Under the pieces are notes generated by a model, which had not been told where the DNA came from, did no database searches, and worked only from the letters and a program-made list of their open reading frames with translations. From Comamonadaceae bacterium (GTDB lineage: Bacteria; Pseudomonadota; Gammaproteobacteria; Burkholderiales; Burkholderiaceae_C): DNA of 39,413 nt. This document shows, in pieces, positions 6,141-37,562 of the stretch. The stretch lies in NCBI GenBank assembly GCA_947372745.1, contig CANBUY010000021.1, positions 1-39,413 of the forward strand. Reading direction: 5' to 3'. The translations under genes and the position numbers were made by a program. The number at the start of each line of letters is the position of its first letter. Position 1 is the first letter of the stretch.

Positions 6141-6146
6141 GATTTT

Positions 6147-7869: not shown

Positions 7870-7911
7870 GCATGAATTTCAAGGGTGCAGACAAACACCA
7901 AACCAATCGGC

Positions 7912-8040: not shown

Positions 8041-8046
8041 TGCGAC

Positions 8047-9297: not shown

Positions 9298-9377
9298 GTT
9301 TTGTATCCTGAAGTTATAACGACCGGCGCATCGGCCAGATCGCTTTGGGTTGATCCGCGCAGGCACCTTGCCGCTCG

Positions 9378-9400
9378 AATTAATTAATTGTTAATTAATT
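9378..9400. promoter_or_regulatory. Perfect A/T palindrome upstream of the sugar-binding-protein gene
   Basis: Arms AATTAATTAA (9378-9387) and TTAATTAATT (9391-9400) flank TTG. It lies about 80 bases before the binding-protein start, between the kinase stop and that start. It could be an operator or an A/T-rich promoter element. No regulator gene is attached to this operon in the window. Confidence 0.4.
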
Positions 9401-9437
9401 TTAATCTCAACGCATCAGGATTTACCCTTAAGCGCGG

Positions 9438-22364: not shown

Positions 22365-22396
22365 TTTTCAATGATTAGTGGTGGTATTCATGGGCA

Positions 22397-23350: not shown

Positions 23351-23438
23351 GCGTCATCATCGGACGCCGACCATCATCAGTCAATACAATGGCATTAATG
23401 TTTTATATCACTGAAATCAATAATCATAGGGCGTATGA
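23351..23438. promoter_or_regulatory. Divergent promoter region between nagAa-like and nagR-like genes
   Basis: The 88 bases are markedly A/T-rich in the half near the LysR gene (ATTAATGTTTTATATCACTGAAATCAATAATCAT region). TGATTTCAGTGAT on the minus strand gives a short repeated TGAT pair that could belong to a LysR-type box. The exact operator cannot be fixed by eye. Such divergent regions usually carry both promoters and the regulator site. Confidence 0.5.
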
Positions 23439-24344
23439 ATGGAACTCAAGGACATCGACCTGAACCTGCTGGTGATCTTTAACCAATTACTCGTTGAGAG
23501 AAATGTTTCAAAGGTTGCTGAGAACCTGGGCCTTGGGCAGCCAGCCGTTAGCAACGCGTTGGCGCGGCTACGCAAGCTTCTTGGCGACGAACTTTTCATA
23601 CGTACCTCAAGCGGTATGCAGCCCACACCTTTTGCCGACCAACTGGCAGAATCAATCGGGTATGCGCTAGGCATGATTCACGGCGCGATTAATGTGAAAA
23701 ATTCATTTGATCCTGCAAACAGCAAGCGGCGCTTTTCAATCGGCATGACCGATATCGGTGAGGTCCACTTCCTGCCTCGCTTGATGGAGAAAATCCCACA
23801 GGTGGCGCCGTCTGTTTCCATCAGCACCGTGAGAAATACAAGCATCAACCTGAAGGATGCGATGGAGGCTGGTCATGTTGATCTGGCGATCGGATTGCTG
23901 CCGCAGCTCAAAGCGGGCTACTTCCAGCAACGATTGTTCACGCAGCACTATGTTTGCATGTTCAGGGCTGGGCACCCTTTGGACAATAAAAAAATTCTCC
24001 CAGCTGATTTTTATGCGGCCGATCACGTCGCGATTATTTCAGCAGGCACAGGGCACGGAATGGTCGATGACATACTGGATAAAAATCTAGCCCAGCGTAA
24101 GGTGAAGTTAACGGTTCCGCACTTTGTGGCGGTCAGTCACATTCTTCAATCGACTAACCTTGTAGCGACTGTGCCCGAACGCCTCGCAGAACACATGGCC
24201 AAGCCATTTGGCCTCAAATATGTGCCCCATCCTGTGAAGCTGCCAGAAATCGCCATCAATCTCTTTTGGCATGCCAAGTACCACAAGGACCCGGCAAACC
24301 AATGGTTAAGGGGGCTTCTCTTTGAAATGCATGCAGATAAATAA
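23439..24344 (+). CDS. nagR: LysR-family regulator, NahR/NagR-like
   Basis: 301 residues: a winged HTH (about 1-65; NVSKVAENLGLGQPAVSNALARLRKLLGDELFIRT) and a periplasmic-binding-protein-like effector domain. Segments such as MTDIGEVHFLPRLM, VDLAIGLLPQLKAGYFQQRL, AGTGHGMVDD and PEIAINLFWHAKYHKDPANQWLR follow the NahR/NagR/DntR pattern as I remember it. Those proteins respond to salicylate. Position divergent from the nagAa-like gene is that of nagR in naphthalene degraders, so it most likely activates the oxygenase genes with salicylate or its analogue. Confidence 0.88.
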   Translation: MELKDIDLNLLVIFNQLLVERNVSKVAENLGLGQPAVSNALARLRKLLGDELFIRTSSGMQPTPFADQLAESIGYALGMIHGAINVKNSFDPANSKRRFSIGMTDIGEVHFLPRLMEKIPQVAPSVSISTVRNTSINLKDAMEAGHVDLAIGLLPQLKAGYFQQRLFTQHYVCMFRAGHPLDNKKILPADFYAADHVAIISAGTGHGMVDDILDKNLAQRKVKLTVPHFVAVSHILQSTNLVATVPERLAEHMAKPFGLKYVPHPVKLPEIAINLFWHAKYHKDPANQWLRGLLFEMHADK

Positions 24345-24376
24345 GCACAGTGATGAATAGAAATTACTCACTGTGC
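24345..24376. terminator. Inverted repeat between convergent LysR and aldehyde dehydrogenase genes
   Basis: Nine-base perfect arms GCACAGTGA (24345-24353) and TCACTGTGC (24368-24376), loop of 14 bases, directly after the LysR stop. Read on the minus strand the stem is followed by TTATTT, so it may end the aldehyde dehydrogenase transcript. On the plus strand no T-run follows. Confidence 0.55.
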
Positions 24377-24448
24377 CGATCATGTGATTGAATGAATTCA
24401 CCAATAATTTTTTGGTCTCACAGCTCCAAAAAACTCAAAGCATTCCGT

Positions 24449-25900
24449 TTACACGGGATAGTGCTGAACCGAGGGCTCAATCGTGATCCACTTGAGTTCT
24501 GTGAACTCATCAATCACAGCGCGGCCATCAAACTTGCCATAGCCACTGTTTTTGGTGCCACCGTAGGGTGCCTGAGCCTCGTTTTGCACAGTGGAGCCAT
24601 TGACGTGGACAGAGCCCGAGTCAATGCGCATTGCCACACCCAGTGCCCGTGTCACATCGCGGCCAAAGACGGCGGCTGATAGCCCGTAGTCGCTGTCGTT
24701 GGCCACAGCCACGGCCTCTTCCACACCTTTGACGCGCACCACGGTGGTGATGGGGCCGAAGGTTTCATCACCATAGATGGTCATGCCAGGTTTGACATGG
24801 TCCACGATGGTGGCGGGCATGATCGCACCATCCGCTTTGCCGCCGCAGGCCAGTGTGGCACCCTTGGTCAAGGCGTCATCAATCATGGCGTTCAGGCGGG
24901 TGCCGGATTCGCTGGCCACCATCGGACCAATCACACAGCCCGGATTGACACGCGGGTCACCCATGAGCAATTCTTTGGCGCGGGCGGCAAATTTGGCGAC
25001 AAATTCGTCGGCCACGGCCTCGTCAACTACCAGACGCTCGGTTGACATGCAAATCTGACCTTGGTACAAAAACGAGCCAAACACCGCGGCCTTCACGGCT
25101 TCGTCAATGTCGGCATCGTCCAGTACGACCTGGGGTGACTTGCCACCCAGCTCCAGCAAGCAGCGCTTCAAGTGGGTCGCGGCCTTTTGCGCAATGATGC
25201 GACCCACGCGCGTGGAACCCGTAAAGTTGATGCGGCGCACAGCTTTGTGCGCAATCAGCGCATCAATCACCTCGGGCGCGTCTTTGGGGGCATTGGTCAC
25301 CAAGTTCAGCACGCCAGGGGGGAAACCTGCTTCAACCAAAGCATCTGCCACCAGCAAATGCGTCTTGGGGCTCGCCTCAGACGCACGGAACACCACCGTG
25401 TTGCCGCAGGCAATCGGGTAGGCAATGGCGCGCGCAGCCAGCACCACAGGGCCATTCCATGGCACGATGCTTAACACCACGCCCACGGGCTGGCGAATGG
25501 TCATGGAGAGTGCGCCGGGCTTGTCGGTAGGAATCGTTTCACCCTGGATTTGGGTGACCATAGAGGCCGCTTCACGGAACAGGTTGGCCGCCAGGTGAAC
25601 GTTGAAGCCGGCCCACAGCGCGGCGGCCCCCACTTCAGCGGCCATCACTTCGATGAATTGAGGTGTTTTGGATTCCAGAACATCGGCGGCCTTGAGCAAG
25701 AGGCGACGACGCTCGCTGGGTGGTGTGTGGCGCCAGGTCTGAAAGGCGGCATGGGCCGAATCGACCGCAGCCACAGCGTCTTCTACGCCACCAGCCGCTG
25801 CGGTAGTAATGATTTCGCCGCTCTCAGGGTGGAGTCGATTGAAGGTGGCGCCGGACTTGGCAGCGACAGATTGGTTGTCAATAATGAGTTGGGATTGCAT
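24449..25900 (-). CDS. nahF: Aldehyde dehydrogenase, salicylaldehyde dehydrogenase (NahF)-like
   Basis: 483 residues, NAD(P)-dependent class. Active-site residues are N149 (PWNG), E250 (LLELGGKSP) and nucleophile C284 (GQICMSTE). The stretch EVMAAEVGAAALWAGFNVH and the C-terminal end VIDEFTELKWITIEP match NahF as I remember it, including the numbering of the catalytic Glu and Cys. NahF oxidises salicylaldehyde to salicylate; benzaldehyde or vanillin dehydrogenases are near relatives. AAGGA precedes the start by about 8 bases. It follows the GMC oxidoreductase gene by 62 bases on the same strand, fitting alcohol -> aldehyde -> acid. Confidence 0.88.
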   Translation of the reverse strand: MQSQLIIDNQSVAAKSGATFNRLHPESGEIITTAAAGGVEDAVAAVDSAHAAFQTWRHTPPSERRRLLLKAADVLESKTPQFIEVMAAEVGAAALWAGFNVHLAANLFREAASMVTQIQGETIPTDKPGALSMTIRQPVGVVLSIVPWNGPVVLAARAIAYPIACGNTVVFRASEASPKTHLLVADALVEAGFPPGVLNLVTNAPKDAPEVIDALIAHKAVRRINFTGSTRVGRIIAQKAATHLKRCLLELGGKSPQVVLDDADIDEAVKAAVFGSFLYQGQICMSTERLVVDEAVADEFVAKFAARAKELLMGDPRVNPGCVIGPMVASESGTRLNAMIDDALTKGATLACGGKADGAIMPATIVDHVKPGMTIYGDETFGPITTVVRVKGVEEAVAVANDSDYGLSAAVFGRDVTRALGVAMRIDSGSVHVNGSTVQNEAQAPYGGTKNSGYGKFDGRAVIDEFTELKWITIEPSVQHYPV

Positions 25901-25962
25901 GGTTTATTCCTTGAGTTTGAGAATTTGTGAGTTAAAAAATTTTTTTTTCTAGCGAACACCGT

Positions 25963-27705
25963 TCAAGCGCGTGCGGTCAGGATGTCTGCCATGCGCTCGC
26001 CAATCAGCGCGCAAGACGCCATAGTGGCCACGCCAGCAATGCGCGGCATGATGGAACTGTCAGCAATGCGCAGCCCCTGCACGCCATTCACGCGCAGCTT
26101 GGCATCCACCACCGCTTCAGCGTCCTTGCCCATGCGGCAAGTACCGGCTTGGTGGAAATAGGTGGTGGCGCCATTGCGTACAAAGTCTTCCATGGCCTTG
26201 CCGGTCAATTTCTTGCCAGGTGCCACCTCACGTTTGACAAAGTCCTTCATGGCTGAAGAGTTCCCAATTTCGCGGCATACCTCGATACCAAAGGCGAGTG
26301 CCTTGACATCATCGGGATGACTCATGAAGCGGGCATCGACCACCGGCCTGTCCGCCACATTGGCAGAGCGCAGGCGAATCTCGCCACGGCTCTTGGGGGC
26401 GATCAAGCCCGCGCACAGCGCCCAGCTGGTGCCGGGCGGTGCGTATTCCTTGCCCACCACATCGCTGGCATAGGGCAGCTCAATTTGAACCAGATTGACG
26501 TCAGGCGAAGCCAGCGACGCCTGGCTCTTGAGAAAGCCCGCTGCGTTGGCGGCACTGTTGCGATGGGGAATGTGCTCCTTGGGCTCCCAGATGCAGCCGC
26601 CGTGAAGGATGTGGTCCTGAAAATTGCGCCCGACTTCCTTGGCATTCACCACTGTTTTGATGCCATGCTGGCGCAGCTGAGCCTCATCACCAATGCCACT
26701 GAGCATCAACAACTTGGGCGTATTGATGCCCCCCGCGCTGACAATGACCTCGGTGTTGGCGCTGATTTTCCGGACACCAGCGGCTGTTGCAATCTCAACA
26801 CCCGTGACCTTGGTGCCCGACAAGGTCAGGCGGTCCACATGGGTGTTGACCAAAACAGTGACGTTGGAGCGCGACAGAACGGGGTAGAGGTACGAACGGG
26901 CCATGCTTTGGCGGCGACCATCGCGGATGATTTGGTTCATCAACGCAAAGCCAATGCCGCTTTCCTCGCGCGCACCATTTTGGTCGGGCAGCACGGGGTA
27001 GCCCAGCGCACGACAAGCCTCCAACATAGCGGGGGCAGCAGGATGCGGGTTGTGCGCTGGCTGGCACCAGACCGGGCCGTTCTTGCCACGGTAGCGAGCG
27101 TCTGGCGCACCTTGCCAGTTTTCCATGCGGCGATAAATCTCCAGCCCTGACTCGTAACCCCAAGCGCGGTCACCGCTGGCTTCGGCCCAGAATTCCAGGT
27201 CAGCCTTGAAGGGACGTGCCCAGATGGTGGCATTGATACTGCTGCCGCCCCCCACCACCCGGCCCATGTGCTCGGGTATGGCGCGGTTGTTGGTGCTGGG
27301 TGAAGCCAGGGCGACATCCTTCCAATCCCGCACGGAGCCCAGGTTGGTAAACCAGACGCTGGGGTCCATCACCGAGGGCGCCACATCCCAGTCGCCCGCC
27401 TCAATCATAAGAATAGAGGCGTCCTTGCGGGTGGCCAACCTGCCGACCAAGGCGGAGGCGGCCGAACCGGTGCCCACAACGATGTAGTCGTAAGCGCCTT
27501 GCACTTTGGCACTGCGTTCATTCTGGTTGGCACGGATAGCGTCAAGCTCATCCGCCAGAGCGCTCAGCCCTGCGGTGGCAAAACCTGCTGCGGTGGCGGT
27601 GCGCATAAATCCGCGGCGGCTCATGCGGTCAGCGATCAGTGCCCGTTCAAGATGCTCCAGCAAGCTATCGGGGGGCGCATTCGGCGTTTTTGAATCAATA
27701 GTCAT
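25963..27705 (-). CDS. GMC-family FAD-dependent alcohol oxidoreductase with Tat-like leader
   Basis: 580 residues from the ATG at 27705; a TTG 51 bases upstream would lengthen it. A twin-arginine motif SRRGFM with a hydrophobic alanine-rich stretch (TATAAGFATAGLSAL) follows an unusually long polar start of about 28 residues, so export by Tat is possible. FAD binding: YIVVGTGSAASALVGRLA. GMC signatures: GRVVGGGSSINATIWARP and SAGGINTPKLLMLSG. The catalytic His is in YFHQAGTCRMG. Relatives oxidise choline, aryl or alkyl alcohols. The aldehyde dehydrogenase gene downstream suggests an aryl alcohol such as salicyl alcohol, which is an inference. Confidence 0.87.
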   Translation of the reverse strand: MTIDSKTPNAPPDSLLEHLERALIADRMSRRGFMRTATAAGFATAGLSALADELDAIRANQNERSAKVQGAYDYIVVGTGSAASALVGRLATRKDASILMIEAGDWDVAPSVMDPSVWFTNLGSVRDWKDVALASPSTNNRAIPEHMGRVVGGGSSINATIWARPFKADLEFWAEASGDRAWGYESGLEIYRRMENWQGAPDARYRGKNGPVWCQPAHNPHPAAPAMLEACRALGYPVLPDQNGAREESGIGFALMNQIIRDGRRQSMARSYLYPVLSRSNVTVLVNTHVDRLTLSGTKVTGVEIATAAGVRKISANTEVIVSAGGINTPKLLMLSGIGDEAQLRQHGIKTVVNAKEVGRNFQDHILHGGCIWEPKEHIPHRNSAANAAGFLKSQASLASPDVNLVQIELPYASDVVGKEYAPPGTSWALCAGLIAPKSRGEIRLRSANVADRPVVDARFMSHPDDVKALAFGIEVCREIGNSSAMKDFVKREVAPGKKLTGKAMEDFVRNGATTYFHQAGTCRMGKDAEAVVDAKLRVNGVQGLRIADSSIMPRIAGVATMASCALIGERMADILTARA

Positions 27706-27733
27706 AGTGATGCAGTTTGAAGTAGTGGTGATT

Positions 27734-27784
27734 AAAAAAGGAGTCTCCAGCGGCAAACGCCAAGCGCGAAAATTTCGCCGCTGG
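27734..27784 (-). terminator. Leader hairpin with T-run upstream of the GMC gene (possible attenuator)
   Basis: On the minus strand CCAGCGGC (27784-27777) pairs with GCCGCTGG (27754-27747), with a 22-base loop, followed seven bases later by six T (27739-27734). It lies between the candidate operators and the GMC start codon (29 bases further on). It may end read-through from the regulator gene, or act as a conditional leader. Confidence 0.45.
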
Positions 27785-27820
27785 TGACAAACTTTAAGTA
27801 ATTACGTCTGCATCAAATAC

Positions 27821-27836
27821 ATCGGGATTTCCCTAA
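27821..27836 (-). promoter_or_regulatory. TTAGGGAAA-CCCGAT motif, copy 1 (upstream of GMC gene)
   Basis: On the minus strand the site reads TTAGGGAAATCCCGAT. A near-identical word occurs at 34579-34595 with the same orientation relative to the minus-strand gene it precedes. The core GGGAAATCCC is nearly palindromic. Confidence 0.5.
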
Positions 27837-27843
27837 GATGTAG

Positions 27844-27862
27844 TTGTTCCGTATCGGAACAA
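27844..27862. promoter_or_regulatory. Perfect palindrome TTGTTCCG-TAT-CGGAACAA, candidate operator
   Basis: Eight-base arms at 27844-27851 and 27855-27862 with a three-base spacer, between the AcoR-like regulator stop and the GMC start, eight bases upstream of motif copy 1. A site of this shape suits a dimeric regulator with a Fis-type or TetR-like HTH; the neighbouring AcoR-like protein is the obvious candidate. Confidence 0.6.
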
Positions 27863-27913
27863 TAAAAACCAAAAGAAAACCAAGAACAGGCCTCAAGACC
27901 TGAAGAAAAATGC

Positions 27914-29113
27914 CTACATGCCTTTGGAACGGCGATAGATCAGGCCACGAGAGACCTTGAGCTTGCGTGATGCTGCAGAGACGTTGCCGCAGCATTCCTT
28001 GAGCGTCTTGGCGATCAAATCCTCGTCTGCATCCCGAAGACTTACAGGCTCAACTTGGTTGACGGTCGGAGCGACTGAATCGAAATCCATTAGACGCTCA
28101 CGGGATAGAGAAGCATCCTGGTTTACGTCATTCGAAAGAGCCTCTTGCGCAGGTCGTCCATGAGCGAATAGGTGGTGATGCCCATCACGTGCCTTGAGCT
28201 CGCACCGCACATGCACCTGCAATCCGTTAGACAAGCGCAATAACACATAGCTGAGGCCACATATCGAAGCGAGCGCAGAAAAGGTGCATTGGAAATCATT
28301 TTCAATTTTTCGGTGTCCAGACTGCACACCATCCTCAGGCAACCCCAATAGTCTGGAGGCGGCAGCATTTCGCCAAACAATTTTGCCTTCCATATCCACC
28401 CCCATCAGGCCGACCATGGGGGTATCGAGCATGGCAGGTGAAATCTGGAAACGGACAATGAGGTGCTCGTTGGATTGCGACACCAGTAAACGGTTTTCGA
28501 TGGACGAGGCGTAAAGACCCACAACCGTTGCTGAATCAAAATTAAAGGGGAGGCCTTCGCTCGACATGTCCAAAACACCCGCTAAGTTGCCATGAATATC
28601 TCGAATGGGGGCTGCCGCACAATGCATGAAGTTGACACTCTCAAAGTAGTGCTCAGCACCCGATACACAGACCTGTTTACCCGTCCGCGCCACAATGCCA
28701 GGAGCGGTAGTGCCTAGGGCTTCTTCAGTGAAATTTACACCTACGCGGTGCGCCACGGGTGTAATTTTTTCATGTACACGATCGGTACGGGTGGCGCCAA
28801 TCAATACACCACTTGGATCGGTCAACATCGCACTGCAATTGGTTGCACCCAGAACTGCGTGGAGCTCGTTGGCCTCAGCCAACCATGCTTCATGTAACAA
28901 GCGGTTTTTTTGCAGCGCGAGCTGCGCCCTGCTGACGGATACCGGCTGAAACTCCAAGCGGCTGCGCGGGTCTAGTTTCAGCCTAACACATCTTGACCAG
29001 GACTGGAAAACGGCCTCACTCACAATCCCGGAAGGAAGCTCACCGCTCTCAAAAAACTTTTCCCGAGCAAGTGCAACTCGATCGGCTTGGGTCGTGAAAA
29101 AGATAGATTGCAT
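27914..29113 (-). CDS. AcoR-like transcriptional regulator lacking the AAA+ domain
   Basis: 399 residues. Order: an N-terminal helical part with SWSRCVRLKLDP; a GAF-type sensor domain (about 80-210; GVNFTEEALGTTAPGIVARTGKQVCVSGAEHYF, the AcoR/DhaR pattern); a PAS-like region (about 225-310); and a Fis-type HTH at the end (DLIAKTLKECCGNVSAASRKLKVSRGLIYRRSKGM). Full AcoR-type activators are about 600-670 residues because they carry a sigma54-contacting AAA+ module with GAFTGA and Walker motifs; none of that is present here. It should therefore bind DNA and sense a small molecule without activating sigma54 polymerase. It follows the SDR gene by 40 bases. Confidence 0.82.
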   Translation of the reverse strand: MQSIFFTTQADRVALAREKFFESGELPSGIVSEAVFQSWSRCVRLKLDPRSRLEFQPVSVSRAQLALQKNRLLHEAWLAEANELHAVLGATNCSAMLTDPSGVLIGATRTDRVHEKITPVAHRVGVNFTEEALGTTAPGIVARTGKQVCVSGAEHYFESVNFMHCAAAPIRDIHGNLAGVLDMSSEGLPFNFDSATVVGLYASSIENRLLVSQSNEHLIVRFQISPAMLDTPMVGLMGVDMEGKIVWRNAAASRLLGLPEDGVQSGHRKIENDFQCTFSALASICGLSYVLLRLSNGLQVHVRCELKARDGHHHLFAHGRPAQEALSNDVNQDASLSRERLMDFDSVAPTVNQVEPVSLRDADEDLIAKTLKECCGNVSAASRKLKVSRGLIYRRSKGM

Positions 29114-29153
29114 GGCCGGTCCTATTTAAGAATCGATGTGCCATCGAAGGCAT

Positions 29154-29924
29154 TTAATGAATGTGTGTTCCACCATTCACATCAATCGTGGCGCCTGTCA
29201 CGAAACCGGAAAGCTCAGAGGCAAGAAACAGACATGCGCCGGCCATTTCACGGGTAGTTCCCGTGCGCTTCAAAGGAATTGCATCAATGATGCCACGCAG
29301 GCGATCTTCTGACAAACCGTCAAGCATCGGGGTCTCTATCATTGCCGGACAAATGGCATTTGCACGAATACCAAGCGAACCAAACTCTCGCGCAATACTT
29401 TTAGTCAAACTCAACATTCCGCCCTTGGAGGCAGCATAGTGTGAACCACCAACTAGCCCACCTCCGCGCTGCGCTGCCAGTGAGGCCACATTAACGATGG
29501 CGCCAGAGCGGTTTTCCTTAAAAACTTTGAGTACGCTTTGGCATAAGAAAAAAGCACCCTTGAGGTTGATATCGAACATGTGATCAAGTTCTTTTTCAGT
29601 GATTTCAAGGATTGGCTGCGAGCGGACGATACCTGCAGAATTAACCAAGCAGTCGATCGTGCCATGCAAGGCCAGAACTTGACCAACCATTTCATCACAA
29701 GCCTCTGGCTTGCTGATATCACAACGTAGTCCATGAACAGAAACCGGCCCTGTCACTCGAGCTTCAATGGCTGATTTCACCTCATGAAGAACCTCATCGT
29801 TCATCATCACATCGACAACGACAACCTTTGCACCATGTTCCACAAATAACTCTGCTGTGGCGTATCCAATGCTTCGGAGTGACGCGGCACCCACGATGAC
29901 ACAAATCTTATCCTTAAGCAACAT
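29154..29924 (-). CDS. SDR-family oxidoreductase (FabG-like)
   Basis: 256 residues. The cofactor motif is GAASLRSIGYATAELF (a variant of TGxxxGIG), followed by NSAG, catalytic Ser in NVASLAAQ, the YAASK tetrad and the C-terminal GATIDVNGG. It likely uses NAD(P)(H) to interconvert an alcohol and a ketone, for instance a 3-hydroxyacyl-CoA formed by the hydratase encoded at 34661, though this link is an inference. The start overlaps the end of the upstream epimerase gene by 11 bases. Confidence 0.88.
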   Translation of the reverse strand: MLLKDKICVIVGAASLRSIGYATAELFVEHGAKVVVVDVMMNDEVLHEVKSAIEARVTGPVSVHGLRCDISKPEACDEMVGQVLALHGTIDCLVNSAGIVRSQPILEITEKELDHMFDINLKGAFFLCQSVLKVFKENRSGAIVNVASLAAQRGGGLVGGSHYAASKGGMLSLTKSIAREFGSLGIRANAICPAMIETPMLDGLSEDRLRGIIDAIPLKRTGTTREMAGACLFLASELSGFVTGATIDVNGGTHIH

Positions 29925-30870
29925 AAAGCCCTTTAGTTTTAAACTTGCACATTATTTTTTCAGTTGGCATTTCACCAAGAATCCAATCCACCACTGAATC
30001 GTGGCGGGGTACCCAGCCAAGCTCATTCTTTGCACGTACTGAGCGAACTCGACTATTACTTCCAAAAGAATAGTGCGCTCTTGGAATTCCCCATAGATTG
30101 GCAGCGACATCAGGATTCAACGACTCAACAGCAGGCAGACCTAGTCGTTTTGACAATGCGCTTCCAATTTCTTTAAACGACGCCTCGCCATTTTCAGCAA
30201 AATACAGCGCACCTGCTGGTGCTTTTTCTAGGCATAGCATATACAAATTAACCACATCATCAATGTGCACGTTCGACCACACGTTAAGTCCAGCGCCAAC
30301 AATTTGAACGCGACCTTGCTGCCTGGCATTGCTCGCAAGAAACGGAACTTGTACGCTGTTCGGGTTTAAGCCTTCTCCTTGTCCATAAATGAGACTTGGA
30401 CAAATGACTATTGAACGAATACCCATTGCCGAAGCAGAAAGAACTTTCAAATCGATATTTCGACGTGCTAGCTTTAACTCTGACACAACAATTGGGGTGT
30501 ATTCATCAAAAATCGTGCCTGACTGATGACTTCCCCGCGCATCGTCCCCCACAATGCTTGAACCACTTGTATGTAAGAGCGGCTTGGAAGTTCCGGACAG
30601 CCCTTTGATCAAAGCCTGTACAGATTCAGCGTGATCTGCACTGGCGGCATTAATGACACCATCTGATTTCCGCGCCTCGAGCTCCAATAAGTCTGAATCC
30701 GACAGTTCACCAAGAACCGGCTCAATTCCATGGGCAACAAGCCAGTCGGCATTTACTTCATTTCGAATGAGTCCCCTTACGTGGACGCCACTTTTAACCA
30801 GCCGTACTGCGATGGAACCACCTATGTACCCGGTGGCTCCAGTGATGAAAATATTTTTTGGAAATGCCAT
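29914..30870 (-). CDS. NAD-dependent epimerase/dehydratase family protein
   Basis: 318 residues from the ATG at 30870; a GTG directly before it (30873) is an alternative. Extended SDR fold: ITGATGYIGGSIAVRL at the start, then HTSGSSIVG, and NVHIDDVVNLYMLCLE. The usual Y-x3-K catalytic pair is not evident at the expected place, where EYTPIVVSELKLARRN and ICPSLIYGQGEG are seen. The class includes sugar epimerases, ketone/aldehyde reductases and lignin-type reductases. Tightly coupled with the TRAP permease gene upstream (TGATG) and the SDR gene downstream. Confidence 0.8.
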   Translation of the reverse strand: MAFPKNIFITGATGYIGGSIAVRLVKSGVHVRGLIRNEVNADWLVAHGIEPVLGELSDSDLLELEARKSDGVINAASADHAESVQALIKGLSGTSKPLLHTSGSSIVGDDARGSHQSGTIFDEYTPIVVSELKLARRNIDLKVLSASAMGIRSIVICPSLIYGQGEGLNPNSVQVPFLASNARQQGRVQIVGAGLNVWSNVHIDDVVNLYMLCLEKAPAGALYFAENGEASFKEIGSALSKRLGLPAVESLNPDVAANLWGIPRAHYSFGSNSRVRSVRAKNELGWVPRHDSVVDWILGEMPTEKIMCKFKTKGLYVA

Positions 30871-32765
30871 CACTGGCCAAATCCAACGGATAAGCCAGGC
30901 ACTGCGGCAACAATGAGCGTTCCAATGATGAGGGCAACGATATAGCCCACAATGGGTCGCATGCCACGACTTGGACTGACCCCGCTAATGGCACAAGCTG
31001 CGTAGTAGCCAACACCGAAGGGGGGAGCAAATAGTCCAATACCCATAGAGAGCACAACGACCATAGAGTAATGAACATCATTGATCCCGAACTGTTTGGC
31101 GATGGGAAAGAGTAAAGGACCAAACACCACAATAGCGGGAATCCCTTCCAGTACGCTACCCAGAATAATGAATGCCAAGATGGAGACAGCAAGGAAACCG
31201 CCTGCGCCCCCAGGTAACTGAGTCATCGCTTGTGCAAGTTGGCGAGAAAAACCGGATTGCGTCAATGCCCATGCCATACCTGTCGCGGTGCCAATAATCA
31301 ACAGAATAGATCCTGATAGTGACGCGGTGTCGACCAATGCGGGCCAAAGCTTCTTGTAATCTAATTGGCGATAAATAAAGACACCAGAGAGGATGGCGTA
31401 TGCAATGCCTATCGTCGACACTTCAGTTGCTGTCGCTACCCCTTCGACCACTGCCGCACGAATAATGAATGGCAATGCCAGTGCTGGACTGGCGATGAGA
31501 AGCGCTCTTCCAATTTCACGCCACGTTGCGCGTCGAACGCCCGTCATGTCCACTTTGCGATTGCGCAACCAGACAACAAAACAGAGCAGCACCGCCAAAA
31601 CCAACGCAGGCACTAAACCGCCAGAAAAAAGTGCGGCAATTGAAATTCCTGTCACAGATCCAATCGTGATTAAAACGATGCTGGGCGGAATGGTTTCCGT
31701 CTGCGCGCCTGTGGCCGCAAGCAACGCAACCATCTCACCTTCATCAACACCACGCTTGCGCATTTCAGGAAATAGCACCGGTGCGATAGCCGCCATGTCT
31801 GCGGCCTTTGATCCAGAAATACCAGAGACAAGATACATACCACCGACCATCACGTAGGAGAGTCCACCGCGTACATGGCCTAGAAGCGAAGCAAGAAATT
31901 GGACCATGGCTTTAGCCATGCCACTGAGCTCAAGAACGACGCCAAGAAAAACAAACAGCGGAACCGACAGGAGCACCAGATGGGACATTCCCTCATCCAT
32001 CCGACCCACGATGACAGTTGTCGGCTTACCCGTCGTCAAGGCAATATAGCCAAACGTTGCCAATCCAAAAGCAAAGGCAATAGGGATGCCGGTGAGCACG
32101 AGTGTCGCCACAATCACAACAAAAAATATGAATAAATTGATATTTCCAAGAGTCTGAAAAATTGGGGTCATCAAATAAAGTGCAACAACAGCGAATGCAG
32201 AGACAGCCAATGCAGACACCAAACGCTTCCAGTTCGAAACTTCCGCAAGTTTGAGGGCAGCGGCAACGCCCATCAACAGAATGCCGCAAGGCAGGGCTGC
32301 GGCACGCCAGGCATTGGAAATTTCTAGCGATGGTGAAGTGACGATAGCCTCATCTATCGCAAATTCAAATGATGGATAACCAATTAAGACTAAGAATGTT
32401 GCGGCTGCTACAACGCCTAATAGGTCCATGAATGCACGCTTTTCTGGCGAAGCCTTATCGACCAGCGCAGTCATGCGCATGTGCGCTGAACGACGAAATG
32501 CAATGACCGATCCCAGCATGGCAAGCCATAAAAACATAATCGCCGCAAGTTCATCAGACCAAGTCAGCGGCCGATGGATCACGTATCGACTAACGACACC
32601 CCCGAATAGAACCAAAATTTCAAGCAATACCAAAATTGCAGCGGGCACTTCAGTAACGAACCCAAGAATCCGATCAACTTTTGCGACAGTCCGAAACCAA
32701 GCGGTATCTGGCAGCCCGTTCGTTTTAATTCCGGATGAATTTTGTGTGTGAGATGACGAGTCCAA
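30870..32765 (-). CDS. TRAP transporter fused small and large membrane subunits (DctQM)
   Basis: About 631 residues. The N-terminal part (to about 190) is a DctQ-type four-helix unit (VPAAILVLLEILVLFGGVVSRYV, TWSDELAAIMFLWLAMLG). The rest is a DctM-type permease with many spans and family blocks (GIPIAFAFGLATFGY, SGISGSKAADMAAIAPVLFPEM, ETIPPSIVLITIGS, FGPLLFPIAKQFGINDVHY). It imports an organic acid with the DctP protein using the sodium or proton gradient. The start is unsure: TTG at 32765 has GGAG eight bases before it and was chosen; TTG at 32807 adds 14 residues but lacks such a site. Both are unusual. Confidence 0.88.
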   Translation of the reverse strand: MDSSSHTQNSSGIKTNGLPDTAWFRTVAKVDRILGFVTEVPAAILVLLEILVLFGGVVSRYVIHRPLTWSDELAAIMFLWLAMLGSVIAFRRSAHMRMTALVDKASPEKRAFMDLLGVVAAATFLVLIGYPSFEFAIDEAIVTSPSLEISNAWRAAALPCGILLMGVAAALKLAEVSNWKRLVSALAVSAFAVVALYLMTPIFQTLGNINLFIFFVVIVATLVLTGIPIAFAFGLATFGYIALTTGKPTTVIVGRMDEGMSHLVLLSVPLFVFLGVVLELSGMAKAMVQFLASLLGHVRGGLSYVMVGGMYLVSGISGSKAADMAAIAPVLFPEMRKRGVDEGEMVALLAATGAQTETIPPSIVLITIGSVTGISIAALFSGGLVPALVLAVLLCFVVWLRNRKVDMTGVRRATWREIGRALLIASPALALPFIIRAAVVEGVATATEVSTIGIAYAILSGVFIYRQLDYKKLWPALVDTASLSGSILLIIGTATGMAWALTQSGFSRQLAQAMTQLPGGAGGFLAVSILAFIILGSVLEGIPAIVVFGPLLFPIAKQFGINDVHYSMVVVLSMGIGLFAPPFGVGYYAACAISGVSPSRGMRPIVGYIVALIIGTLIVAAVPGLSVGFGQ

Positions 32766-32877
32766 AGGGGCGTCTCCAAATAATTGATTGGAACCTGTAC
32801 GATTCAAGAAGGGGCATCAACTGACCGCCGAATATTTTTAGTATTCGAACCTAAATTTGAAATTTAAAGACGGCCTG

Positions 32878-32909
32878 AATGGAGTCAGTCCAAATGGACC
32901 GACTCCATT
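32878..32909. terminator. Strong hairpin between dctP and dctQM genes
   Basis: Arms AATGGAGTC (32878-32886) and GACTCCATT (32901-32909) continue, after one mismatch, into GTCC/GGAC, with loop AAAT. No T-run follows, so it looks more like an mRNA-stabilising or processing hairpin behind dctP than a full terminator. A second inverted repeat, CGAATA/TATTCG, lies at 32829-32847. Confidence 0.6.
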
Positions 32910-32920
32910 TCATGAACTGG

Positions 32921-33973
32921 CTAGACCAGCTTACCCGTGTACTTTTCAAGCAGGGACCATGTTTCGGGGCCAAACTTCTTCTGCCATTCAGCGTAATAGC
33001 CAGCTTTTTGCAAGGTTTCACGGAATGGTTTCGTCTCAACACGATTGAACTGCATACCCAATCCTTTTAACTTGGTCTCAAGAGTAGCGTTCAAGGTATC
33101 GTGCGCTGTTCGCTGCTTCAATGCATGCGCGTCGAAGATACGAGTTGCCATCGCTCTCAGATCTTCCGGTAAGGCATTCCAGTTCTTTTTATTCCCAACA
33201 AGTGAGAAGTACTCCCACATATGCGAGGTGGTAGAGCAATATTTTTGAACTTCGTAGAGCTTAACTGCATCAATGGTTGGAAGCGCATTCTCTTGTCCAT
33301 CCACCACCTTGGTCTGAAGTGCGGTGTAGAGCTCACCGATTGGCACTGTTGCGGGCGAAGCATCAAAGCCCTTGAACATCGATGTCCACAGTGGCGTTGC
33401 AGGTACACGAATCTTCATTCCAACCAAATCCTTTGGCGTCGAAATTGGCTTGGTCGAATGTGTAATTTGACGGAATCCGTGGTCAAAGACTCGGCCAACT
33501 TGCGTCAGATTAACCTTATCAAATGATGCGCGGATGTGTGCTCCAAGCTCCCCATCCATAGCCTTCCAAACGGTCGCGTAATCAGGAAATGCAAACGCAA
33601 TCGAATTTATAGCCGCTGTTGGCATCAGATTTCCATAAATGGAGCCTGCGGTGCAAATGAAGTCAATAGCGCCTGATCGGACTTGAGAAAGCGTATCCGT
33701 GTCACTACCCAACTGACCACTGGGATAGACCTCTACATTCAGGCGACCGTTTGATTCCTTCAAGATTTCTGCACAGGCAGCTTTCAGTGCAATTGGTGTT
33801 GGATGACTTTCAGGCAACGTAATTGCAATTTTAAAATTGAATTTTGCAGCACCTTGCGCAAGCAGCATGCCTGGAATCAAGCTTGTTACAGCCACGCCAG
33901 CTATACGCTTCAATGCAGTTCTACGACCGCTCTGATTTTCGCTAACTACGTTTGTTTTATTTATCAAAATCAT
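32921..33973 (-). CDS. TRAP transporter substrate-binding protein (DctP family)
   Basis: 350 residues from the ATG at 33973, preceded by AGGAGA at good spacing; the frame is open further up, through the VOC gene region. The N-terminus has GRRTALKRIAGVAVTSLIPGMLLAQGA, a twin-arginine or Sec leader. The mature part follows the DctP pattern: ALPESHP-like start (ITLPESHPTPIALKAACAEI), YPSGQLGSD, and RVPATPLWTSMFKGFDASPATVPIGELYTALQTKVVDGQENAL. The arginine in KIRVPATP is the usual carboxylate clamp, so a carboxylic acid is the likely cargo. It acts in the periplasm. Confidence 0.92.
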   Translation of the reverse strand: MILINKTNVVSENQSGRRTALKRIAGVAVTSLIPGMLLAQGAAKFNFKIAITLPESHPTPIALKAACAEILKESNGRLNVEVYPSGQLGSDTDTLSQVRSGAIDFICTAGSIYGNLMPTAAINSIAFAFPDYATVWKAMDGELGAHIRASFDKVNLTQVGRVFDHGFRQITHSTKPISTPKDLVGMKIRVPATPLWTSMFKGFDASPATVPIGELYTALQTKVVDGQENALPTIDAVKLYEVQKYCSTTSHMWEYFSLVGNKKNWNALPEDLRAMATRIFDAHALKQRTAHDTLNATLETKLKGLGMQFNRVETKPFRETLQKAGYYAEWQKKFGPETWSLLEKYTGKLV

Positions 33974-34007
33974 GTCTGTCTCCTGTTGATGTAATTTACT
34001 GATTTTT

Positions 34008-34430
34008 TTAGAACACATTGGGCTGGTGAACTTCGATGCAATGGCCATCTGGGTCGTAAAGGAACACTTGGTGCCAACCAGGGATCGCCCAGCATCCGTA
34101 GTCTGAATAGCGAATGCCCATCGCATCGCACTTACGCATAAAGCCCTGTATGTCGTCGGTACGGAAGCAAAAGTGACCATGCCCCATGGGGTTGACGAAC
34201 TTCTTCATTTTGAAGCCAGTTTCCAGATCACGTTCCGACCAATGGAACTCAATGTCGCCATCGGTCAAGAAATCAACTTTGCCTGTATACGCACGATCGT
34301 CACGCTCTCGGCTAATCACGGTATGTTCGTTATCCGTAATCGTTCCAAGCTCAAACAGTGTTTTGTAGAACTTGGTCAATCTGGGCAAGTTGTCTGAGCA
34401 AATATTCATGTGGTGAAACTTGAATTCCAT
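34008..34430 (-). CDS. VOC-family metalloprotein (glyoxalase/dioxygenase fold)
   Basis: 140 residues forming two beta-alpha-beta3 modules. The likely metal ligands are H7, E61, H86 and E133 (HHMNI, DIEFHW, GHGHFCF, DGHCIEVHQP), the His/Glu/His/Glu set seen in glyoxalase I and methylmalonyl-CoA epimerase rather than the two-His-one-Glu set of extradiol dioxygenases. It is the first gene of the minus-strand TRAP operon, 34 bases before dctP. The reaction is unknown; an isomerase, epimerase or lyase acting on the imported acid or its CoA ester is plausible. Confidence 0.8.
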   Translation of the reverse strand: MEFKFHHMNICSDNLPRLTKFYKTLFELGTITDNEHTVISRERDDRAYTGKVDFLTDGDIEFHWSERDLETGFKMKKFVNPMGHGHFCFRTDDIQGFMRKCDAMGIRYSDYGCWAIPGWHQVFLYDPDGHCIEVHQPNVF

Positions 34431-34660
34431 AGCGCTTTCTTTCGGTTAGGTTACGAACCCTCGATGACCGAGGCCATGCGAGGCAGCTCCAAATAATTGA
34501 GCTGGGAGCTTTACTTCGCCCGGATCTGTACGATACATGTATTTACATATGAAGTAAATAATTCGCCAATGAATTTTGATCGGGGTTTTCCCTAATCTTT
34601 CACGCATTTTTTAGCCTTAAACTAGAATAATTAATTACCAATGAATAAAATAATTCATAC
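34431..34660. promoter_or_regulatory. Divergent control region between the VOC/TRAP operon and the hydratase operon
   Basis: 230 A/T-rich bases with several short inverted repeats: CCTCG/CGAGG (34459-34473), CAGCTC/GAGCTG (34484-34504), ATACATGTAT (34533-34542) and ATTTAC/GTAAAT (34541-34559). The shared TTAGGGAAA motif (34579-34595) and an ATGAAT/ATTCAT repeat next to the hydratase start (34641-34666) are listed separately. Both operons must be transcribed outward from here. No -35/-10 pair could be fixed with confidence. Confidence 0.6.
34579..34595 (-). promoter_or_regulatory. TTAGGGAAA-CCCGAT motif, copy 2 (upstream of VOC/TRAP operon)
   Basis: On the minus strand it reads TTAGGGAAAACCCCGAT, one base longer than copy 1 at 27821-27836. 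About 150 bases before the VOC start and 65 before the hydratase start. Confidence 0.5.
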
Positions 34661-34666
34661 ATGAAT
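34641..34666. promoter_or_regulatory. Overlapping ATGAAT/ATTCAT inverted repeats at the hydratase start
   Basis: ATGAAT (34641-34646), ATTCAT (34653-34658) and ATGAAT (34661-34666) form two overlapping palindromes, with the last ATG being the start codon. Bound regulator would cover the ribosome/promoter zone. A related word (TCATACAGGTGAAT) lies upstream of the iclR-type gene at 37606-37619. Confidence 0.4.
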
Positions 34667-35527
34667 CAATTAAATGAAGAGCATTTAGCGCTGGCAACCA
34701 TCCCGGAAGCCACCCTTCGCAAGGAAATCTGCAGTATTAGCGCGGCGCGAAGAGTCGCGGCAATGCTTGATCTGAATCCTGATGAGATCGTTGAAGGCGC
34801 ACCGCTTCCACGCGGCTGGCAATTTATTTTGTTGGGGGCTGATACGAAACGATCGCTACTTCGTGCGGATGGTTTTCCAGGGCTTGGGGTGTCTATGCCA
34901 GACCTGGGGCTTCCGCGACTCATGCTCGGGAGCAGGTCTGTTGCATATAAGGAGGACATACCTATTGGTGCCTCAGTCAGTCGCCATAGCTTCATCCAAA
35001 GCCTTAAACAAAAATCAACGAAGTCGGGACCCATGGTCGTTGCCACAATTCAACATGAATTAAGGCTTGACAGTGAAGCCCCGCCTGCCCTGATTGAAAC
35101 GCAAACGTACTTGCTACTGCCAGCGACCAAAGGCGCTTCGTTATTAACCGAAGCGAGTATCCCGCCCATCGTGACAGGGGATCTGGTGAAGACGGTGGTG
35201 CCGAATGAAACTCTCCTGTTTCACTACTCAGCGCTTGGGTTCAACTCACACAAAATTCACCTTGATAGAACCTATGCCCGCAATGTGGAAGGTTTTCCGG
35301 ACTTGGTTGTGAATGGTGGTCTTTCAACCTTGCTACTTACTGATTTTTTTCGCCAGAAAACTGGCGCAACACTTTCTTCATTCAAGGCGCGTCACTTGGC
35401 GCCCTTGTACTGTGGAAGTCCCATCACGATGGTCGTCAAAAAAATTGAGTCAAAGTGGCAACTCCAAGCTTATGACAACCGTTCAACCCTTGCCGTCGAT
35501 ATAGAGGTAGAAACCCATGAGCTTTAG
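34661..35527 (+). CDS. Hotdog-fold hydratase, HTD2/mesaconyl-C4-CoA hydratase-like
   Basis: 288 residues. A degenerate N-terminal hotdog (LPRGWQFILLGADTKRSLLRADGFPG, GLPRLMLGSRS) and a C-terminal hotdog with the active-site segment SALGFNSHKIHLDRTYARNVEGFPDLVVNGG (N195, H197, H200) match the COG3777 type. Relatives add water to the double bond of CoA esters such as mesaconyl-C4-CoA or itaconyl-CoA, or act on acyl-ACP. It overlaps the CoA-transferase gene by 11 bases, so hydration of the CoA ester made by that enzyme is likely. No Shine-Dalgarno sequence is visible before the ATG. Confidence 0.8.
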   Translation: MNQLNEEHLALATIPEATLRKEICSISAARRVAAMLDLNPDEIVEGAPLPRGWQFILLGADTKRSLLRADGFPGLGVSMPDLGLPRLMLGSRSVAYKEDIPIGASVSRHSFIQSLKQKSTKSGPMVVATIQHELRLDSEAPPALIETQTYLLLPATKGASLLTEASIPPIVTGDLVKTVVPNETLLFHYSALGFNSHKIHLDRTYARNVEGFPDLVVNGGLSTLLLTDFFRQKTGATLSSFKARHLAPLYCGSPITMVVKKIESKWQLQAYDNRSTLAVDIEVETHEL

Positions 35528-36716
35528 TCCTTTAAAAGGCATTCGAGTCCTTGACCTCACCAGCGTGGTCGTTGGCCCGGTCTGCACTTGGCGATTAGGA
35601 CAATATGGCGCTGAAATAATCAAGGTTGAAAACCCTGAAGGTGACTTGATGCGCGAACTTGGTGGCGGTTCACCCACGGGACAGCATTCAGGTACCTACC
35701 TTCACCTCAATCGTGGCAAACGCAACATCTGCCTCGATCTTAAAAAATCAGATGCCACCCAAGTGATGGATCGATTAATTGAATCGGCTGACGTTATCGT
35801 TGCAAACATGCGTCCGCAAGCCTTAAAAAAACTTGGCTTGGATTCTGAGACTATACGGGGTCGTTATCCAGACAAGATTTACTGTTTGATCACGGGCTAC
35901 GGCACCGACGGACCTTACGCCGGTCAACCCACCTACGACAGTGTTGTTCAAGGTGCAACAGGGATGGCCGGACTATTCCTTCGGCGTGATGGAAGTCCAA
36001 ACTATGTGCCCATGCTCATCTGCGACCATGTCGCAGGTGAAATAGCTGCAGGCGCTATTCTTGCGGCCATTGTTGAACGAAAGGTGAATGGAAATGGCAG
36101 CACCATTGAAGTCCCGATGTTCGAAACAATGGCGGCCTTTGTCCTGCAAGAACATCTAGCGCAACATAGCTTCGATCCTCCTGTTGGACCACCCGGAGAT
36201 CTTCGCTTACTAAGTCCTCACAACAAGCCCGTAAAAACATCAGATGGTTGGATTTCGTTCACCATGAACACTGATACGCAGGTTCGTGCGTTCCTACGTG
36301 TCACAGGCAGAGAGGCCTTAATTGATGACGCACGATTTAACTCTGTATCAGCCCGAGCGAAAAACGTTACAGAATGGTTTGAAGTCCGGGGAACGCCTCT
36401 GACGGGTATGACAACTGAAGAATGGCTTGAATTATTACAAAAAGCCGATATCGCAGCCCAACCCTGCCACACACTTGAAACGCTTCCGCATGACAAGCAC
36501 CTCACAGCGGTTGGTTTAATACAGCACGAACAACACCCGACAGAAGGGAAAACGGCTGCCATTCGAGCGTCTATCAAATTCAACGACGCCTACCTTCACT
36601 TGCGCGAATCTTCACAACCTAAAGGCTGGGAAACCAAGCAGTTGCTTCAAGAGATGGGCTACGAGAAAAGCGAAGTTGCTGCTCTGCTGGCCACCGGATC
36701 GGCGATTTCTGCCTGA
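35517..36716 (+). CDS. CaiB/BaiF (class III) CoA-transferase
   Basis: 399 residues. Typical blocks: LKGIRVLDLTSVVVGPVCTWRLGQYGAEIIKVENPEGD, LNRGKRNICLDLK, ADVIVANMRPQALKKLGLD, ITGYGTDGPYAGQPTYDSVVQGATGMAG, and the probable catalytic aspartate D170 in CDHVAGE. Class III enzymes move CoA between carboxylic acids (formyl/oxalyl, succinyl/mesaconyl, succinyl/itaconate). The start lies inside the hydratase gene with GAGG a few bases upstream. Together with the hydratase and the TRAP importer it suggests activation of an imported unsaturated or hydroxylated acid. Confidence 0.92.
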   Translation: MSFSPLKGIRVLDLTSVVVGPVCTWRLGQYGAEIIKVENPEGDLMRELGGGSPTGQHSGTYLHLNRGKRNICLDLKKSDATQVMDRLIESADVIVANMRPQALKKLGLDSETIRGRYPDKIYCLITGYGTDGPYAGQPTYDSVVQGATGMAGLFLRRDGSPNYVPMLICDHVAGEIAAGAILAAIVERKVNGNGSTIEVPMFETMAAFVLQEHLAQHSFDPPVGPPGDLRLLSPHNKPVKTSDGWISFTMNTDTQVRAFLRVTGREALIDDARFNSVSARAKNVTEWFEVRGTPLTGMTTEEWLELLQKADIAAQPCHTLETLPHDKHLTAVGLIQHEQHPTEGKTAAIRASIKFNDAYLHLRESSQPKGWETKQLLQEMGYEKSEVAALLATGSAISA

Positions 36717-36743
36717 ACCAGAGTTTGAGTTTTAGCGTCTAAT

Positions 36744-37562
36744 TTAGGAAGGCAAGCTACGTTTTACAGTGCCACCTATTTTTTCAGAGAGTGTTCGTGC
36801 TGACGCGCCAAGGGCGGCTGTTACTTCAGGAATCGATTTACGTTGGTTCTCGTCAATCCGCTCGGAATAAGGAACGGTCAGGGCTGCAAGCGCACGTCCT
36901 TGCGTATCCAAAATAGGAAAGCTCACTGCGTAGAGTCCTCGAACTTGCACACTGGGACTTGATTCGAAGCCAATCTTCCGAATGACATCAAGAATGGGGC
37001 TGACTTGAGGATCTGCCTGAACTGGGCGCCGCTGAATTGACTCTTCTATCCATAATTTAGTGGTTTCAGAACTTTGAAACGCCAAAAGTACACGACCTGA
37101 TGCTGAGATCAAAACATCAAGTTCCGAACCTGCACGCACGCTAAACCCCATTCCGCTTGGCGCATCAACCTTCGCTAGAACCAATTGCTTGCCTTGCGAA
37201 TAAACGGTAAGGTGGCAGGATTGGTCAAGTTCTTTGGCCAATCTTTGCATGACGGGCATGGCCTCAAAAAGCAATCGATGGGTTGGCGGATTGATGTGCG
37301 AAAGTTCAAATAATTTAGTGGTAATCGTGTAAGAGCTTTCATCGACTTGAGAAACGTAATTTCTGTCAACAAGGCAGCTCACCATACGGTAAATTTCACC
37401 TACACTGCGCCCGAGCTGCTTGGCAATCTCTTTTTGCGAGAGCGCACCTTCGCTCTTGCAGAGCATTTCGAGAATGTCCAAACCCTTCTCAAGTGCCGGG
37501 GCTGCGTAAATGCGCCGCTCCGCTTCAGCTTTGCCAACAGTCACCTTCGATTCATCACTCAT
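36744..37562 (-). CDS. IclR-family transcriptional regulator
   Basis: 272 residues. An N-terminal winged HTH (about 25-85; GALSQKEIAKQLGRSVGEIYRMVSCLVDRNYV) and a GAF-like effector domain (about 100-260; SCHLTVYSQGKQLVLAKVDAPSGMGFSVRAGSELDVLISASGRVLLAF, RGLYAVSFPILDTQGRALAALTVPY). IclR proteins often control adjacent catabolic genes and bind short palindromes. It converges on the CoA-transferase gene (27 bases apart). It most likely controls the hydratase/CoA-transferase operon and perhaps the TRAP operon. Confidence 0.9.
   Translation of the reverse strand: MSDESKVTVGKAEAERRIYAAPALEKGLDILEMLCKSEGALSQKEIAKQLGRSVGEIYRMVSCLVDRNYVSQVDESSYTITTKLFELSHINPPTHRLLFEAMPVMQRLAKELDQSCHLTVYSQGKQLVLAKVDAPSGMGFSVRAGSELDVLISASGRVLLAFQSSETTKLWIEESIQRRPVQADPQVSPILDVIRKIGFESSPSVQVRGLYAVSFPILDTQGRALAALTVPYSERIDENQRKSIPEVTAALGASARTLSEKIGGTVKRSLPS

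Follow-up and report, generated by a model that had tools for sequence, protein, structure and literature searches.

The degradation of itaconate in Pseudomonas comprises the coenzyme A (CoA) transferase Ict, the hydratase Ich and the lyase Ccl, and is among the described systems closest to the gene block analysed here. In the benzoyl-CoA pathway, ring opening is carried out by 6-oxocyclohex-1-ene-1-carbonyl-CoA hydrolase, an enzyme of the crotonase fold. Willows and poplars defend themselves chiefly with salicortinoids. One of these, salicortin, is reported to be split hydrolytically by the moth Cerura vinula, giving saligenin and 1-hydroxy-6-oxocyclohex-2-ene-1-carboxylate, HCH (PMC12745818). 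Pseudomonas fluorescens GM16 is reported to oxidise Populus-derived salicyl alcohol to salicylate, with 3-oxoadipyl-CoA thiolase acting last; the word salicortin is nowhere used in the main text of that paper (PMC9959693). Here we analysed a 39,413-nucleotide stretch of DNA (the window; contig CANBUY010000021.1) from a Comamonadaceae bacterium and describe in it two divergent operons that form a catabolic module. Its five-gene core recurs in two bacterial phyla, and its substrate may be the HCH part of salicortin-type glucosides.

The genome to which the window belongs is a draft of 217 contigs, 86% complete and 6% contaminated. A first-pass annotation made from the letters of the DNA had named the genes of both operons and proposed a route of import, CoA transfer, hydration and oxidation for an organic acid. 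All genes named there are intact reading frames lying at or inside the positions first assigned to them, and their families are supported by Pfam and NCBIfam. The forward operon encodes a double-hotdog hydratase (34661-35527) and a class III, CaiB-like CoA-transferase (35517-36716), and is followed on the reverse strand by an IclR-family regulator (36744-37562; Pfam IclR_C/HTH_IclR). The operon on the reverse strand encodes a glyoxalase-type metalloenzyme of the vicinal oxygen chelate (VOC) superfamily (34008-34430), the solute-binding protein DctP of a tripartite ATP-independent periplasmic (TRAP) transporter (32921-33976; the shorter start was chosen by us, as the longer listed frame runs into the VOC gene), a fused DctQ-DctM permease (30870-32807), an Epimerase/NmrA-like protein of the extended short-chain dehydrogenase/reductase (SDR) type (29914-30873) and a classical FabG-like SDR (29154-29924).

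The catalytic positions of the core enzymes are well preserved. The CoA-transferase (Pfam CoA_transf_3, 2.2e-92) has Asp170, which we take to be the catalytic residue, in 57/57 family members; against the NCBIfam mesaconate model it scores 146 bits at a cut-off of 700, and it also stays far under the cut-off of the glutarate enzyme. For the hydratase, the Pfam match is weak (FAS1_DH, 8e-05) and the NCBIfam search was without match; firmer assignment comes from a profile match (E = 1.4e-21) whose nearest solved relative is itaconyl-CoA hydratase, and from a predicted model (pLDDT 89) whose top Foldseek matches, 8huc and 8khg, have TM scores of about 0.8 at 26-27% identity. F194, N195, H197, I199, H200 and N218-G219-G220 are invariant among its 55 members, and S196 is found in 54. 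In the VOC family, H7, H86 and E133 are present in 71/71 members and E61 in 64, with Gln in the other seven. The His/Glu/His/Glu ligand set read from the window at the outset is thus borne out, and the protein would carry a four-residue metal site of the glyoxalase I type, with metal binding predicted. Its model (pLDDT 92) has as nearest Foldseek folds methylmalonyl-CoA epimerase and Ni glyoxalase I, enzymes of the same superfamily whose metal-ligand positions are presumably the same ones. The window protein differs from them in its partners and in its sequence (12-20% identity among the matches listed), and it passes no NCBIfam cut-off.

The classical SDR retains Ser148 in 78/78 proteins of its cluster, paralogues included, and Tyr163 and Lys167 in 77 each, with one gap at either position. 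In the epimerase-like protein, the Tyr position of the Tyr-x3-Lys motif is occupied by Val (16), Ile (5) or Pro (1) in the 22 members, and the Lys (Lys134 in the window) is kept in all of them. Judged by these residues, it is not a canonical SDR. Thus, where two dehydrogenase-type proteins had been proposed, the block has a single canonical SDR.

The VOC alignment was used to scan GTDB species genomes, and the best 80 of 395 relatives yielded 79 distinct loci. Removal of the duplicates L047 and L051 (of the congeners G085 and G076) and addition of the two congeners' loci and of four plasmid loci gave 83 clustered loci. Genes were called with a simple longest-open-reading-frame script, so some were missed, and many loci stop at contig edges; the VOC gene was called in 70/83 loci, yet it had been matched by the scan in 79/79. 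The neighbourhood comparison that the first-pass annotation had suggested shows the hydratase and the class III CoA-transferase together near the VOC gene in 55 of the 83 loci, and in 47 of these 55 an SDR and an IclR gene were called as well. The CoA-transferase is present in 55/55 hydratase loci. Over all 83 loci, the SDR was counted in 64 (paralogues included; 60 are 42% or more identical to the SDR of the window), IclR in 60, the CoA-transferase in 57, the hydratase in 55, DctQM in 24, DctP in 23 and the epimerase-like gene in 22. Identity to the window's proteins is 63-86% for the CoA-transferase in 56 of 57 loci, the 31% copy of L098 being a paralogue, and 38-73% for the hydratase over its 55 loci; the hydratase of L122 (51% identity) fell outside the cluster. 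Middle-range hydratase relatives (about 35%, L034-L038) were dropped, as their neighbourhoods differ from that of the module.

Bearers belong to Comamonadaceae, Sphingomonadales, Rhizobiales, Rhodospirillales, Pseudomonas and Bacteroidota, i.e. to Beta-, Alpha- and Gammaproteobacteria and a second phylum; freshwater and plant-associated bacteria are among the proteobacterial ones. Besides the window's own genome, only the congeners G085 and G076 were VOC-positive among 198 genomes searched (E 1e-10), and both have the block from IclR to SDR in the same gene order. On plasmids, tblastn found VOC and hydratase genes in Blastomonas, Phaeobacter, Agrobacterium and a Rhizobium, and the neighbourhoods on four plasmids were viewed. 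The block is therefore a real and widely conserved catabolic module whose recurrence across phyla exceeds chance, and the proposed succession of import, CoA transfer, hydration and oxidation has a conserved gene set behind it. Since the core gene set recurs while the transporter type differs among loci, the unit is a five-gene core of VOC, hydratase, CoA-transferase, SDR and IclR with an exchangeable transporter. Each of its parts comes from a known family, but no paper listed by the literature searches describes a pathway that corresponds to the module as a whole, and a search on this gene combination found no paper. Even with a substrate other than HCH, it would be a five-gene catabolic module of two phyla for which the papers listed hold no description.

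The identity of the VOC protein to that of the window falls into two bands, 70-96% and 43-55%, with nothing between, and that of the partner genes declines gradually. In sphingomonads and Rhizobiales (L055, L062, L064, L066-L070), VOC proteins of 81-89% identity stand beside partners of 35-71%, which looks like an exchange between modules of the VOC gene by itself. In L075, L079, L080 and L081, a variant pairs a VOC protein (71-72%) and an SDR (58-60%) with a GntR regulator and an HsaA-like flavin monooxygenase, and both the hydratase and the module's CoA-transferase are missing from the stretch; it may be that VOC and SDR form a sub-unit acting ahead of CoA transfer.

TRAP genes are found in Betaproteobacteria, SBF transporters in 13 loci, all of Bacteroidota, MFS transporters in 6, and ABC genes lie near some other modules. 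TRAP and epimerase-like genes mostly travel together: of the 22 loci with an epimerase-like gene, 20 also encode DctP. Among solved structures, 4oan is the closest to DctP in sequence (363 bits). The fused permease occurs among bearers in two types with similar flanking genes, one about 71-84% identical to the window's (L048, L053, L056, L059, L071, L074, L076) and one about 47-50% identical in most others.

The end of the pathway is probably of the beta-oxidation type, because 20 of the 55 hydratase loci add a 3-hydroxyacyl-CoA dehydrogenase (two families, 22/83 loci in all) and 11 a 3-oxoadipyl-CoA-type thiolase; these 11 are the only thiolases found beside the module in the 83 loci. Three thiolases were run against the curated 3-oxoadipyl-CoA thiolase model (cut-off 597): two pass with 700 and 608 bits, and the third, of L033, is a fragment and stays below. 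The first-pass annotation had seen neither lyase nor thiolase. This holds for the window genes examined; for the thiolase it does not extend beyond them, given the 11 loci and a copy on another contig of the window's genome that is 85% identical to a relative's. In both congeners (L031 1-8400, L033 1-9400), an adipate-type beta-oxidation operon (acyl-CoA dehydrogenase, FadB, 3-oxoadipyl-CoA thiolase) lies downstream of the module, together with what we take to be a hemerythrin-like gene. Around the thiolase of the window's own genome, none of the other genes of this operon that were tested was found. A tie between the module and the adipate-type operon was set aside as not general, and only the broader association with 3-hydroxyacyl-CoA dehydrogenases and thiolases was retained.

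The genes adjoining the module point to the context of its substrate, and had not been part of the first-pass annotation. The product of 24449-25900 (reverse strand) matches the salicylaldehyde dehydrogenase NahF (4jz6) with 732 bits (E = 2.2e-219), the next match, at 552 bits, also being a salicylaldehyde dehydrogenase. A three-gene set at 20590-23350 (reverse strand) encodes a salicylate 5-hydroxylase with reductase (22397-23350), alpha (21075-22364) and beta subunit (20590-21078); the Rieske oxygenase alpha subunit matches salicylate 5-hydroxylase 7c8z with 783 bits (E = 7.6e-235), and the next match reaches 311 bits. By these scores, both enzymes of salicylate catabolism are encoded in the window. 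Between them lies a LysR gene on the forward strand (23439-24344), taken as regulator of the salicylate genes from the family search and the neighbourhoods of relatives. A glucose-methanol-choline (GMC) oxidoreductase at 25963-27756 (reverse strand; Pfam), with a Tat-like RR motif read from its sequence, is a putative salicyl alcohol dehydrogenase; it is closest to choline oxidase, followed by various alcohol oxidases. A search of the window's genome for gentisate 1,2-dioxygenase gave 258.7 bits on another contig at a cut-off of 442.1, and that contig also holds fumarylpyruvate-hydrolase-like and maleylpyruvate-isomerase-like genes. Together, salicyl alcohol would be converted to salicylaldehyde by the GMC enzyme, to salicylate by NahF and to gentisate by salicylate 5-hydroxylase, unlike in GM16, where the route is reported to go via salicylate hydroxylase and catechol (PMC9959693).

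These genes adjoin the module in the window and lie near it in relatives. AcoR-like, GMC, NahF and salicylate 5-hydroxylase genes are clustered in G085 (L126/L127), G076 (L131) and Curvibacter (L128), and the same clusters hold gentisate dioxygenase-, fumarylpyruvate hydrolase- and maleylpyruvate isomerase-like genes. The salicylate set of Caballeronia (L130) has a zinc alcohol dehydrogenase and is without the GMC and AcoR-like genes. The distance from salicylate 5-hydroxylase to the VOC gene of the module is about 36 kb in G085, 24 kb in Curvibacter and 34 kb in Caballeronia; in G076 the two lie on separate contigs. On the Blastomonas plasmid, the module, a gentisate dioxygenase, aldehyde and alcohol dehydrogenases, a beta-glucosidase and an oxygenase alpha subunit sharing 65% identity with that of the window are found within 28 kb. 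To our knowledge, the pathway from salicyl alcohol to gentisate has no CoA steps, and it forms an arm separate from the module.

Co-occurrence was then assessed genome-wide in 49 bearer genomes, chosen from the 79 scan loci for having hydratase and CoA-transferase (L090 was omitted, its identities being the same as those of L089) and grouped by their record titles. The controls were 195 module-free close relatives of the window's genome. The salicylate 5-hydroxylase alpha subunit (at least 60% identity, fragments counted) was present in 26 of 28 bearers from Betaproteobacteria (19/21) and Sphingomonadales (7/7), as compared to 22 of the 195 module-free genomes (Fisher p 1e-18). NahF (at least 68% identity) was present in 20/28 and 2/195, respectively (Fisher p 4e-20; both p values ignore relatedness). 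In these two groups, salicyl alcohol catabolism is accompanied by a CoA-dependent route for another compound, an acid; elsewhere this route exists without it.

Gene content, catalytic residues, conservation and the association with salicylate genes are read from sequence; from them we infer what the module acts on, in which order its steps proceed and which reaction each enzyme catalyses. Salicortin is proposed because it is a natural compound that gives salicyl alcohol and an unusual acid, matching the two arms that travel together. We consider it close to an even chance, on the lower side, that the module acts on HCH, which forms the acyl part of glucosides of the salicortin type in Salicaceae, and that the adjoining genes take the salicyl alcohol. 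HCH is a cyclic 2-hydroxy-3-oxo acid; 2-acetolactate, presumably the ligand modelled in the DctP relative 4oan, is a simple acid with the same motif. A review passage that does not mention 4oan names 2-acetolactate among TRAP ligands (PMC5812351). The TRAP importer would take up the acid, and the CoA-transferase would load it with CoA, probably from succinyl-CoA, which would also shield the beta-keto acid from decarboxylation. The VOC protein could catalyse an enolate isomerisation and the hydratase a hydration with ring opening, after which the SDR and the 3-hydroxyacyl-CoA dehydrogenase would oxidise the product and the 3-oxoadipyl-CoA-type thiolase would perform thiolysis. The carbon balance, C7 = CO2 + C4 (succinyl) + C2 (acetyl), would fit HCH with such a thiolase. 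The hydrolase of the benzoyl-CoA pathway would act on a similar 6-oxocyclohexene-carbonyl-CoA; no crotonase-fold enzyme is found among the window genes at 20590-37562. Decarboxylation of HCH to 6-hydroxycyclohexenone as the first step was set aside, as it would leave the CoA-transferase no acid. The recorded sources of the two Agrobacterium plasmids with VOC and hydratase genes are aspen and willow, and the full set is found in the willow plasmid. A literature search for a Populus origin of the strains AP50, OK212, OK607, GM50 and YR768 found no paper, and such an origin does not enter into the argument.

A literature search on salicortin, HCH or salicyl alcohol and bacterial degradation revealed no bacterial HCH pathway in the titles and abstract openings among the matches listed. 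With a little less confidence than in the substrate itself, we consider that no bacterial route for the HCH ring may have been recognised before this one, a horizontally mobile cross-phylum module in which VOC protein and hydratase open the ring as CoA thioester towards 3-oxoadipyl-CoA thiolysis, paired with a salicyl-alcohol arm so that the molecule is used in both its parts. If so, it would account for a capacity of bacteria in soil, rhizosphere and fresh water to mineralise important defence compounds from the leaf litter of Salicaceae, offer a sequence marker for the ability to break down salicortinoids, and represent new enzyme chemistry, in which a cyclic 2-hydroxy-3-oxo acid would be the substrate of a VOC protein and a hotdog hydratase.

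Several observations weigh against HCH as the substrate. Salicylate 5-hydroxylase was found in none of the other 21 bearers (11 Bacteroidota, 8 other Alphaproteobacteria, 2 Pseudomonas) and NahF at the same threshold in just one of them; the association is thus confined to two groups and could be ecological. Within these groups, 8 of the 28 bearers are without NahF at this threshold. Since 22 module-free relatives carry salicylate 5-hydroxylase, the enzyme does not need the module. The two identity thresholds were fixed after the tables had been seen, and the controls include no Sphingomonadales. No single esterase or glucosidase for the release of HCH recurs in most of the 83 loci; some loci have alpha/beta hydrolases, one family of which occurs in 6 loci, exclusively of Bacteroidota. 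Many bearers are metagenome-assembled genomes without a known link to Salicaceae, and a Cupriavidus plasmid has hydratase and CoA-transferase genes with no VOC gene listed nearby and no VOC match in the record. Finally, the identity of the 4oan ligand as 2-acetolactate is a presumption.

In a further set of observations on glycoside processing, 10 loci, the majority of them of Bacteroidota (L044, L083, L088-L092, L094-L096), have DUF1080 proteins (3-keto-disaccharide hydrolase-like) close to the module; of two run against Pfam, one is above and one below the cut-off. A right-handed beta-helix protein is found in 7 loci in all, at some beside a DUF1080 protein. Processing of a glycoside by these neighbours is possible.

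Several of the same observations suit a different substrate. The module might degrade a different small, branched acid of C5-C7, either hydroxy/oxo- or unsaturated, e.g. from plant or algal exudates, its co-occurrence with salicylate genes then reflecting a shared plant-litter niche; we regard this as a real if somewhat doubtful possibility. The closeness of the hydratase to itaconyl-CoA hydratase argues for such an acid, as do the lack of salicylate 5-hydroxylase in all bearers outside Betaproteobacteria and Sphingomonadales and the presence of an algal-phycosphere isolate and Phaeobacter among the bearers. The SBF transporter of the Bacteroidota loci also scores best against the model of the pantoate transporter PanS, though with 230 bits it remains under the cut-off of 400. 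What speaks against it is the very strong and often local association with salicylate genes in the two groups.

An unlikely reading takes the module as a CoA-dependent beta-oxidation of o-coumarate or melilotate, in which CoA transfer, side-chain hydration, oxidation by the SDR and thiolysis would lead to salicyl-CoA or salicylaldehyde. The enzyme types suit this route, and a product feeding NahF and salicylate 5-hydroxylase would account for the linkage, but it gives no role to the VOC protein or to the alcohol dehydrogenases and fits neither the two thiolases above the 3-oxoadipyl-CoA thiolase cut-off, nor the lack of salicylate 5-hydroxylase in the 21 bearers of other groups, nor the proximity of DctP to a presumed binder of a small acid.

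A known itaconate/mesaconate-type route with its lyase encoded elsewhere is very improbable and was rejected, for despite the CoA-transferase and the itaconyl-CoA-hydratase-like protein, which the module shares with the Pseudomonas system down to the double-hotdog Ich fold, the equivalog cut-offs are missed, the hydratase is just 26-27% identical to PaIch, a thiolase-type ending is indicated, and VOC and SDR recur at the loci and a lyase does not: no citramalyl-CoA lyase family was found by Pfam and NCBIfam among the window genes at 20590-37562 or the 15 non-module neighbour families annotated, out of 22 recurring in at least four loci. The distinction from itaconate and mesaconate degradation drawn in the first-pass annotation therefore stands, and its interpretation is overall partly supported.

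With regard to regulation, the divergent promoter region of 230 bases (34431-34660) was aligned with the homologous intergenic regions of 11 relatives. Three conserved blocks, given here as in the window copy, are TGAAT-N6-ATTCA (34642-34657), AGGGAAAACCCC (34582-34593) and TTCATATGTAAA (34542-34553). They are palindrome-like, and more so in the consensus than in the window copy, in which a repeat finder run on that copy alone detected no inverted repeat. The blocks are candidate shared operators, consistent with common control of both operons. Of the two regulators said to flank the module, IclR belongs to it, whereas the GAF+Fis (AcoR-like) protein (27914-29113, reverse strand; Pfam), in which no AAA+ domain match was found, goes with the GMC gene in relatives. 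The two genes are adjacent in L057, L058, L128 and L131 and 4 kb apart in L126; in L060 they are 14 kb apart with the module between them. Because it follows the GMC gene even away from the module, as on the other contig of G076, the AcoR-like regulator was assigned to the adjoining salicyl-alcohol genes.

Elsewhere in the window, genes for an ABC transporter (ATPase and solute-binding protein) and a ROK-family protein at 5070-10436 might handle the glucose moiety of a glucoside or have no connection with the module. At 18039-20240, a protein of 733 amino acids unites an OsmC domain with YcaO and YcaO_C domains.

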